NCBI GenBank assembly: GCA_019246625.1
Contig: JAFAQB010000266.1
Span: 1-64,000 of the forward strand
Direction of reading: 5' to 3'
Source: Nitrososphaeraceae archaeon
Lineage (GTDB): Archaea; Thermoproteota; Nitrososphaeria; Nitrososphaerales; Nitrososphaeraceae
Length of the DNA: 64,000 nucleotides
The position numbers and the translations under genes were made by a program. A model generated the notes under the pieces. The model ran no database searches. It saw nothing but the letters and a program-made list of their open reading frames with translations, and was not told where the DNA came from. Numbering within the stretch: position 1 is the first letter of the stretch; every line of letters begins with the position of its first letter. Of this stretch, positions 6,389 to 62,470 are shown piece after piece.

Positions 6389-6664
6389 ATGCTTGCGGAG
6401 ATTGCAGACATAAAAGACAACGAACTTGAATTGAAACTTCAGGAGGAGGACATTTCAATCATGTACATTATACAGCACGAGCTTTTAAAGCAACCAAATG
6501 TTGAATTTGCAGGTGTAATGCTTAAGCATCCTCTCATTAAGGATTATGTCCTCCGGCTTTTAACGACCATTGATCCAATAGAAGCAGTTCAAGATGCGTC
6601 TCTCTCTGCATCAAAATATGCGGAAGATTTGGCCAGCACACTAAGAGAAAAATTGAAGAAATGA
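6389..6664 (+). CDS. rpoL: RNA polymerase subunit Rpo11 (RpoL)
   Basis: 91 residues, the usual length for the archaeal L subunit that pairs with Rpo3 in the polymerase assembly platform. It shows the dimerisation core ELELKLQEEDISIMYIIQHE and the LKHPLIKDYVLRLLT segment of the Rpo11/Rpb11 family. It is followed after 16 bases by transcription factor S, so two RNA polymerase-related genes sit together. Confidence 0.92.
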   Translation: MLAEIADIKDNELELKLQEEDISIMYIIQHELLKQPNVEFAGVMLKHPLIKDYVLRLLTTIDPIEAVQDASLSASKYAEDLASTLREKLKK

Positions 6665-35411: not shown

Positions 35412-35496
35412 TTTCCAGATGTTATATTGAAACTCATATAAGCATTTGCATATACACGTTCATCAGGACTGGCACCGACCTTAATGCTTAAAAAAG

Positions 35497-35587
35497 CGGG
35501 TCCGGCGGGCTTCGATCCCACGACTACTGGCTCCGGAGGCTAATGCTTAATGAAATCAGCACCCTATCCTGACTGGGTGACGGACCC
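35497..35587 (-). tRNA. tRNA-Arg(CCG) with 16-base intron at position 29/30
   Basis: Minus-strand tRNA from 35587. Acceptor GGGTCCG/CGGACCC, D stem ACCC/GGGT, anticodon loop CTCCGGA (anticodon CCG), variable TAGTC, T stem GTGGG/CCCGC and discriminator G. The anticodon stem reads CTG, then 16 extra bases (35556-35541), then GC against GCCAG, so removing the insert restores CTGGC/GCCAG exactly. The junctions fit a bulge-helix-bulge: outer AGG/CCT, central GTGC/GCAT, bulges TG^A and TA^G, inner TT/AA. A TATA box lies at 35611-35620. Confidence 0.88.
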
Positions 35588-35904
35588 TGCTACAGTATCC
35601 TTCATTTGTGGATATATAATCGTAAATACGGCTAGAGATATCCTTTTATAAATAAGGAGAATTTATGGAGTAAATGTGCGTCTCCTCAGAGGAGGATAAA
35701 AATAGGTAAACAAAACGTCTCACTTCTGGCATCATGAGATAATCAAAAGTATAAGACAAATAGAACTCTTATTTTGTTCATCATCTTAGATGTCAGACGT
35801 GTTGGATTGCTGCAACCAATCAGTAATAAATCGTTGAAATAGTTTAATATTGATATTTTACACTACACTTATATTTCAAAATTATCATTGGGTTATACGT
35901 TCTG
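35588..35904. other. Divergent gap between tRNA-Arg and phosphatase
   Basis: Holds the tRNA promoter (TATA at 35611-35620, minus strand) and a small palindrome CTCCTC-A-GAGGAG at 35682-35694. No gene of useful length on either strand. Confidence 0.45.
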
Positions 35905-36636
35905 TTGGGATCAATAAGTAGCTTCGCGGTTGATATTGATGGCACATTGACGGAAAATGGAGGAGGAAGGTTGTATATACCTGCTATGGAAGCCTTACGT
36001 TACCTAGAAAGGCTTGGGTACAATATAATCTATGTGACCGGAAGGTCATCGATAGAAGCATACGTGCTTGCAGTATTCATTGGCACGACAAAGATTGCTG
36101 TAGGAGAGAACGGCGGCGCGGTGACAACTGCACCTCAAGAGCACGTTCTTTTGGCAAGTAAAAAGAAATGTCTGAGTGGCTATGAAGTATTAAAAAAAAA
36201 CATTGATGGCGTCAAGATTAAACCTGTTTTTGAAAGGATGACGGAAGTTGTGCTCTTCAGAACCTTTGACATAGAACAAGGTCGTAAAATATTGAAAGAG
36301 AATAATTTAGATCTCTCTATCAACGACAGCAAATATGCATTTCATATTAATGAAAAAGGTATAGACAAGGCGATCGGATTGAAGGTGGCACTAAAGATGT
36401 TAAAAGCCCATGCTGCACAAACTGTTGCTATAGGTGATAGTGAGACTGACATCCCTATGTTCGATATATGTGGTTATAGTGTTGCTCTAAATCATGCTCC
36501 TGAGAATGTTAAATCTAGGGCAAACCATGTAGTGAGAGGCACCGAAGGCATAGGTGTGGTAGATGCCATAGATTTTGTGGCCTTCAATTATATGGGATTG
36601 AGATCTAAGAATGACATTTCGAGCCTTAGTGAATGA
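35905..36636 (+). CDS. Phosphoglycolate phosphatase, archaeal HAD type
   Basis: 243 residues of the HAD superfamily, Cof/TA0175 branch. Motif I is FAVDIDGTLTENG (nucleophile Asp near residue 9), motif II is the Thr in IIYVTGRS, motif III is the Lys in KGIDKAIGL and motif IV is AIGDSETDIPMF. It removes the phosphate from 2-phosphoglycolate, a product of DNA repair or oxygenation side reactions. TTG start. Its 3' end overlaps argS by 26 bases. Confidence 0.85.
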   Translation: MGSISSFAVDIDGTLTENGGGRLYIPAMEALRYLERLGYNIIYVTGRSSIEAYVLAVFIGTTKIAVGENGGAVTTAPQEHVLLASKKKCLSGYEVLKKNIDGVKIKPVFERMTEVVLFRTFDIEQGRKILKENNLDLSINDSKYAFHINEKGIDKAIGLKVALKMLKAHAAQTVAIGDSETDIPMFDICGYSVALNHAPENVKSRANHVVRGTEGIGVVDAIDFVAFNYMGLRSKNDISSLSE

Positions 36637-38527
36637 GATTCACAACGTGATATCAGTGAGCCTTAGGAATTTGGATTATCCAAAACAAGATTTTGAAATC
36701 TCAGAGCCATCCAGAACCGAATATGGAGATTTGACTTGCAATGTATCTTTTCAGCTCAGTAGAAAAATCGGAAAGCGGCCATTTGATATTGCGGATGAAA
36801 TTGTAGAGAAACAGTTGAAGCCATATTTGAATGAGAAGAAGAAGGATTGTTCAACTCTTATTTTGTCCGCTGAAGCACATCCTGCTGGTTACATTAACTT
36901 TAAAGCAAATTTCGAGAAATTGACGGAAAGTACATTAGATGAGGTGCTTAAAAATCCGAAGTATGGTTTTTACGATTTTGGCAAGGGCAAGGTGGTCTTA
37001 ATTGAGCATACAAGTGTCAATCCAAATAAGTCCTTACATATTGGCCATATTCGGAACACAGTCATAGGGGATGCTATATATAGAATTATGAAGACGACGA
37101 ACCACAAAACCATAGTACTAAACTACATTGACGATTCCGGTTTACAAGTTGCAGATATTGTTGTCGGATTCAGATTCGCAGGATTTCCTCTCGAGCCTAA
37201 TGACAAATCTTTAAAGTTTGACCATTATTGTGGCGATCAAGTGTATGTTAAGGTAAATGAAATGTATGAAACAGATCCCTCTCTCGAGGAAAAAAGAAGA
37301 ATTGTATTAAGAGAAATTGAAGAAGGCACATCGGAAATTGCCAAGTTAGCATCCAACATTACTATGCGCGTGCTGATAGAACAATTAAAGACATGCTGGA
37401 GAATCAAAACCCGTTATGATCTATTGAACTTTGAGTCACAGATCATTCATTCAAAAATATGGAATAGGACCTTTGAAATCTTGAAGGAAAGAGGAATTTT
37501 GATGTTGGAAGTTACGGGCAAAAATAATGGGTGCTGGGTATTAAGATTGGATGATGAAGACGACAAGGTATTAGTAAGAACTGACGGCACAACAACCTAT
37601 ATTGCAAAGGATATACCCTATGCCGCCTGGAAATTAGGGATAATTGAAGACCCATTTTCGTATTATAAATTTGTCAATCAATGGGATGGTTCTATACTAT
37701 GGGCCACTACAATGGAACCTAATACTAACCTCCACCCGAAGTTTAATTCAGCAGATTTAGCCCTGACCGTAATTGATGCTAGACAAGCTAGGTTACAGAG
37801 AATGATTTCAAAGGTGTTGTCTAGAATTTCGGATAAAAACAAACGGTATCACCACCTAGCTTACGAAGCTGTGACATTGAGTTCTGAAACTGCTAAATTA
37901 TTTGGACTTGATATTGGGGAAAAAAGATTCCTGCATATGTCGGGGCGAAAGGGCATTTACATTAATGCAGATTACATTTTAGACTTATTACATGCCAAAG
38001 CTCTGGAAGAAGCGAAGCATAGAAACCCTGACCTATCCAGCCAATCGTTGAATGAGATTGCAGAAGAAGTTGCAGTTTCCGCTATCAGATACAACTTAAT
38101 AAGACAGGATTTAGATAAGATAGTAAATTTTAACTTAAAAGAATCTTTAAGCCTAGAAGGAGATACGGGACCATATTTACAATATGCATACGCAAGGTCA
38201 CAAAGGATCTTGGAAAAATCAGATCAATATGTCTCTGACACAAAATATGAGTCCTTGACAGGGGAAGCAGAGCGAGGCCTACTTAGAGAGATAGCCAAGT
38301 TTGACATGGTCATGGAAGAGTCAGCGAAGACGCTTGACCCGAAGTTGGTGGCAAGATATGGGTACAGGCTTGCAACAGCATTCAATTTATTTTATGAAAA
38401 ATCACCAGTACTAAAGGAAAAAGACAAGCAAATTATGCGTACTAGATTAGCCATTGTAAAGGCATTTGGTTTGACTCTGAAAAATACCTTAGACATACTT
38501 GGCATTACGCCATTAACTAAAATGTAG
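36611..38527 (+). CDS. argS: Arginyl-tRNA synthetase
   Basis: Class I synthetase of 638 residues. The N-terminal Add1 domain recognises the tRNA D loop. HIGH lies at 143-146 in SVNPNKSLHIGHIRN, and the KMSK site is represented by LHMSGRKG, the degenerate form usual in ArgRS. The C-terminal DALR anticodon-binding domain contains GPYLQYAYARSQRIL. It overlaps the phosphatase and is divergent from a tRNA-Arg gene about 1 kb away. Confidence 0.95.
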   Translation: MTFRALVNEIHNVISVSLRNLDYPKQDFEISEPSRTEYGDLTCNVSFQLSRKIGKRPFDIADEIVEKQLKPYLNEKKKDCSTLILSAEAHPAGYINFKANFEKLTESTLDEVLKNPKYGFYDFGKGKVVLIEHTSVNPNKSLHIGHIRNTVIGDAIYRIMKTTNHKTIVLNYIDDSGLQVADIVVGFRFAGFPLEPNDKSLKFDHYCGDQVYVKVNEMYETDPSLEEKRRIVLREIEEGTSEIAKLASNITMRVLIEQLKTCWRIKTRYDLLNFESQIIHSKIWNRTFEILKERGILMLEVTGKNNGCWVLRLDDEDDKVLVRTDGTTTYIAKDIPYAAWKLGIIEDPFSYYKFVNQWDGSILWATTMEPNTNLHPKFNSADLALTVIDARQARLQRMISKVLSRISDKNKRYHHLAYEAVTLSSETAKLFGLDIGEKRFLHMSGRKGIYINADYILDLLHAKALEEAKHRNPDLSSQSLNEIAEEVAVSAIRYNLIRQDLDKIVNFNLKESLSLEGDTGPYLQYAYARSQRILEKSDQYVSDTKYESLTGEAERGLLREIAKFDMVMEESAKTLDPKLVARYGYRLATAFNLFYEKSPVLKEKDKQIMRTRLAIVKAFGLTLKNTLDILGITPLTKM

Positions 38528-62370: not shown

Positions 62371-62470
62371 GCCGCTGTAGCTCAGCATGGTAGAGCAAAT
62401 TCATGGCTATGCCTTGGAGCTCAACTGGCTGTTAACCAGTGGGTCATCAGTTCGAGTCTGATCAGCGGCG
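62371..62470 (+). tRNA. tRNA-Asn(GTT) with 26-base intron at position 27/28
   Basis: Acceptor GCCGCTG/CAGCGGC, D stem GCTC/GAGC, anticodon stem ACTGG/CCAGT with loop CTGTTAA (anticodon GTT), variable GGGTC, T stem ATCAG/CTGAT and discriminator G. Twenty-six extra bases lie between the D stem and the anticodon stem. With the intron at 62399-62424, a bulge-helix-bulge forms: central GAGC (62393-62396) with GCTC (62419-62422), bulges AA^A and AA^C, and an intron hairpin with a GGC-TAT-GCC tip. Removal gives a 74-base tRNA. Confidence 0.9.

Follow-up and report, generated by a model that had tools for sequence, protein, structure and literature searches.

A predicted noncanonical intron at position 29/30 of tRNA-Arg(CCG) in a Nitrososphaeraceae archaeon and its relatives

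Thaumarchaeota are well documented as carrying tRNA introns at noncanonical positions: according to the accessible text of the tRNAscan-SE 2.0 study, 107 such introns occur in the thaumarchaeal genomes analysed, and the program carries a covariance model trained on them (PMC8450103). Noncanonical introns of crenarchaea (Pyrobaculum, Thermofilum) likewise form a bulge-helix-bulge (BHB) motif; they are scattered over the tRNA and processed by a heterotetrameric endonuclease (PMC3218864). Broad specificity of the enzyme is conferred by a Crenarchaea-specific loop (PMC6379350; PMC12397907), and reviews assign thaumarchaeal endonucleases to the alpha2beta2 type (PMC4090602; PMC3218864).

The intron that we describe here, in a tRNA-Arg(CCG) gene of a soil-type ammonia-oxidising archaeon, is solidly supported as a real and ordinary case of the noncanonical introns already established for Thaumarchaeota. 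It has the same motif, phylum and class of position as the thaumarchaeal BHB introns of PMC8450103, without any essential difference from them as far as the accessible text describes them; that text names neither this gene nor this genome. With canonical archaeal introns at 37/38 it shares motif and enzyme. Unlike these, it splits the anticodon stem, and its precursor helix borrows the 3′ strand of the D stem. The crenarchaeal genomes differ from this one in having far more introns per tRNA and, in some of them, split and permuted tRNAs (PMC3218864).

The gene occupies positions 35497-35587, on the reverse strand, of a 64,000-nucleotide stretch of DNA (the window) that represents contig C311 of the genome. 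Exon 1 (nt 1-29; 35557-35587; GGGTCCGTCACCCAGTCAGGATAGGGTGCTG) is followed by a 16-nt intron at position 29/30 (35541-35556; ATTTCATTAAGCATTA) and by exon 2 (nt 30-73; 35497-35540; GCCTCCGGAGCCAGTAGTCGTGGGATCGAAGCCCGCCGGACCCG), which carries the anticodon CCG at 35536-35534. Excision of 35556-35541 restores the anticodon stem CTGGC/GCCAG and yields a standard cloverleaf of 75 nt, with acceptor, D, anticodon and T stems all intact. A TATA-box-like TTATATAT on the same strand (35612-35619), 25-32 nt upstream of the mature 5′ end, is a putative promoter, and a run of six T directly downstream of the gene (35490-35495, reverse strand) a putative transcription terminator.

Both junctions fit a BHB. 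In its central helix, GTGC of exon 1 (nt 24-27; 35559-35562) pairs with GCAT of the intron (35543-35546), with one G-T pair; in the outer helix, AGG (nt 21-23; 35563-35565) pairs with CCT (nt 31-33; 35537-35539). The bulges, TG^A and TA^G, are 3 nt each, and the inner helix has 2 bp only, TT/AA. All of these elements had been described in an earlier note on this DNA, together with the intron and the restored stem, and all are present in the sequence; the identity that it proposed holds too. With the intron taken out, the tRNA is complete and has the anticodon CCG. In an unconstrained MFE fold of the whole precursor the motif is absent; this fold was counted neither for nor against the BHB. A 10-nt repeat, TTAAGCATTA, is found within the intron (35541-35550) and just past the T run (35482-35491). 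This is probably due to chance, since a third copy lies in the window at 6516 and the sequence downstream of the gene is not common to relatives.

Standard tools miss the gene. ARAGORN, whose intron mode is not built for noncanonical positions, makes no call of tRNA-Arg(CCG) at 35497-35587; Rfam at the gathering score does not call it either, so that annotations may wrongly report this tRNA as missing. Infernal returns a weak match of 19.6 bits to the 3′ part only, as expected for an interrupted tRNA. In a script that tries every single-intron removal with BHB-like junctions and scores the resulting cloverleaf, the 16-nt excision at 29/30 ranks first, with 27.0 against 21.7 for the best unspliced reading. 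A complete, intron-free tRNA-Arg(CCG) elsewhere was what the earlier note had named as evidence against its proposal. Searching the genome (3.96 Mb in 461 contigs, 96.8% complete) with a 3′-half pattern, which has a single match, and with a tRNA search revealed no second tRNA-Arg(CCG), intron-free or other, though a copy might lie in the part missing from the assembly. A separate locus (L033) that ARAGORN does call tRNA-Arg(CCG) was rejected, being tRNA-Asp on inspection.

Searching 70 family genomes at the DNA level, we obtained 37 orthologues, this gene included, which represent 33 distinct sequences. The intron is found at the same site in 37/37; in length it varies from 13 to 30 nt, and its interior shows no conservation. 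All four pairs of the central helix (nt 24-27 with intron positions -3 to -6) and all three of the outer helix (nt 21-23 with 31-33) are formed in every orthologue, the AGG strand of the latter being invariant. A perfect central helix occurs in 33/33 distinct sequences, compared with a mean of 0.54 and a maximum of 5 when the intron letters are shuffled (2000 shuffles). Compensatory changes between exon and intron are seen in relatives: at nt 25, T-A becomes C-G (L142), and at nt 27, C-G becomes G-C (L172 and L173, family f15) or A-T (L179, family f12). The covariation of nt 27 thus extends both to the intron and to nt 43 in the mature stem. The inner helix reaches 9 bp in relatives whose introns are longer and is short or absent in several orthologues: the BHB spans the relaxed to the strict form. 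Judged from these alignments, the intron is not a product of chance, as the 37 orthologues keep its position and all helix pairs. In four genomes of the Nitrosopolaris-like genus g6 (L134, L138, L144, L145), the spliced stem reads CTAGC/GCCAG; these archaea may tolerate the resulting A29-C41 mismatch or correct it by RNA editing.

The placement of a BHB intron at 29/30, which the earlier note had advanced, is thus borne out by the scan and by the 37 orthologues. We estimate a probability of about 0.96 that the locus is a functional archaeal tRNA-Arg(CCG) gene, present in one copy, whose noncanonical BHB intron at 29/30 is spliced out by a broad-specificity endonuclease.

The need for such an enzyme had also been pointed out, and an alpha-subunit gene with the broad-specificity loop motif is present in the same genome. 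Its one PF01974 protein, EndA alpha (G000:C441, 183 aa), has catalytic chains of Aeropyrum pernix (3P1Z, 3AJV) among its best matches of solved structure. The catalytic triad Y120/H128/K159 aligns with Y125/H133/K164 of the Aeropyrum enzyme, and K38-P39-K40 with K44-P45-R46, its Crenarchaea-specific loop. Most genomes of the family have a second PF01974 protein, a structural beta subunit that in the examples read is devoid of the catalytic His and of the loop. Neither PF01974 and PF02778 nor the protein from a relative detected a beta subunit in this incomplete assembly; an assembly gap is the most likely cause, because all six single-contig relatives have the second EndA gene. A gene for the RtcB ligase is present.

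We propose that the gene is transcribed and that two stretches of exon 1 find partners in the precursor: nt 24-27, which run from the 3′ strand of the D stem to the anticodon stem's first base, with GCAT close to the 3′ end of the intron, and nt 21-23 with nt 31-33. With these pairings, a 3-nt bulge at each junction would be offered to the splicing endonuclease, probably a broad-specificity enzyme of (alpha-beta)2 composition, with the alpha subunit encoded in the genome and the beta subunit presumed for this strain. The enzyme would cut at TG^A and TA^G and RtcB would join the exons; the D and anticodon stems would then refold to give the mature tRNA, presumably charged by the neighbouring arginyl-tRNA synthetase (ArgRS).

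The synthetase gene, argS (36611-38527, forward strand; Pfam), is the divergent neighbour of the tRNA, and this linkage is conserved across the class. Between the two, within the conserved neighbourhood, lies a gene for a HAD-type hydrolase (35905-36636, forward strand). The closest named relatives of the ArgRS are from Nitrososphaera sp., Candidatus Nitrosopolaris and other Nitrososphaeraceae, which places the genome in the Thaumarchaeota (Nitrososphaerota) and bears out the archaeal source assumed in the earlier note. We surveyed the class by a pattern search of 250 genomes, with matches read individually. The 29/30 site is occupied in seven families (f1, f6, f7, f9, f11, f12 and f15); in f2, f4, f9 and f14-f19, some or all of the members that we read lack the intron. 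Intron-bearing (L040-L045, L062, L079) and intron-free genes (L056, L060, L061, L089) alike are placed upstream of argS in divergent orientation, which identifies them as true orthologues. Given the conserved place beside argS and the existence of intron-bearing and intron-free orthologues, gain and loss can be traced at one orthologous site. Among ammonia-oxidising archaea, this is a clean, phylogenetically deep case of a tRNA intron at a noncanonical position.

The survey also brought up variants of the gene. Two tRNA-Arg(CCG) genes without the 29/30 intron (L236 in G271, L243 in G159) apparently have an intron in the D loop instead. One genome has, 1.7 kb from its intron-bearing tRNA-Arg(CCG), a second, intron-free tRNA-Arg with anticodon CCG (L246, G027:C1:379023-379097); its body resembles tRNA-Arg(TCG), and it looks like an anticodon switch. 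In the searched genomes of genus g5 (G005-G019), three single-contig ones included, the pattern finds no tRNA-Arg(CCG), its one match, in G019, being a non-tRNA sequence. The gene may have been lost there, with CGG read by tRNA-Arg(TCG), or may be interrupted in its 3′ half.

Persistence over many genera would suit an intron with a function of its own, for instance in guiding modification or as a stable circular RNA; guide activity is known for some archaeal tRNA introns, as in euryarchaeal tRNA-Trp. The present introns, however, are 13-30 nt long, below the length of a box C/D guide, their interior is unconserved, and orthologues in several families do without them; we consider such a function very unlikely. 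As the interior is not conserved, the intron probably does nothing beyond being removable. That it is actively retained across the seven families, and is not a passive leftover, seems to us unlikely; were it so, the switch between D stem and anticodon stem in the precursor might, for example, time modification or folding.

Alternatively, the locus could be a decayed pseudogene, disabled by insertion of the 16 bases, with the reading of CGG left to tRNA-Arg(TCG). The latter tRNA is present in the genome (L019), wobble might enable it to read CGG, and in the searched genomes of genus g5 no tRNA-Arg(CCG) is detectable. Yet the mature cloverleaf is intact, the neighbourhood is conserved, and 37/37 orthologues retain both the site of the intron and the helix, with compensatory changes, where a pseudogene would decay. 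By this conservation the pseudogene appears largely refuted, and we give it hardly any credence. Equally little speaks for a real intron with other boundaries, such as 28/29 or a shift by one base: the weak inner helix leaves the 5′ cut less well defined than the 3′ cut, but there are no identical junction bases to permit sliding, any one-base shift alters the mature sequence, 28/29 would here produce an A29-C41 mismatch, and the 4+3 conserved pairs leave the BHB geometry no freedom.

The intron-bearing tRNA-Arg(CCG) has company in its own genome. Among the 37 tRNA genes examined, 18 read as intron-free and 16 have one resolved intron; the other three (L030, L034, L036) probably carry more than one. 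At least nine introns are noncanonical and about seven lie at the canonical 37/38. Noncanonical ones in the anticodon arm are those of Arg(CCG) and Pro(GGG) at 29/30, Phe(GAA) at 30/31, Asn(GTT) at 27/28 and Lys(CTT) at 42/43; D-loop or D-arm introns occur in Asp(GTC) (L033), Glu(TTC) (L035), Arg(CCT) (L032) and Gln(TTG) (L029, at 10/11). Positions other than 29/30 derive from a simple scoring script and are possibly off by one base.

The closest parallel is tRNA-Pro(GGG) (L037), whose 18-nt intron lies exactly at 29/30, with 4/4 central and 3/3 outer pairs and bulges CA^T and AA^G; it differs from that of Arg(CCG) in isotype and intron sequence. Position 29/30 is therefore not rare in this organism. 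The earlier note, in calling it rare, went too far, in view of this tRNA, of the other anticodon-stem introns of the genome and of the thaumarchaeal introns documented in the accessible text of PMC8450103.

The window itself holds a second intron-bearing tRNA, at 62371-62470 on the forward strand. ARAGORN misreads it as tRNA-Arg(CCT) with a different intron: it is tRNA-Asn(GTT), interrupted at about 27/28 by an intron of 26 nt (62399-62424).
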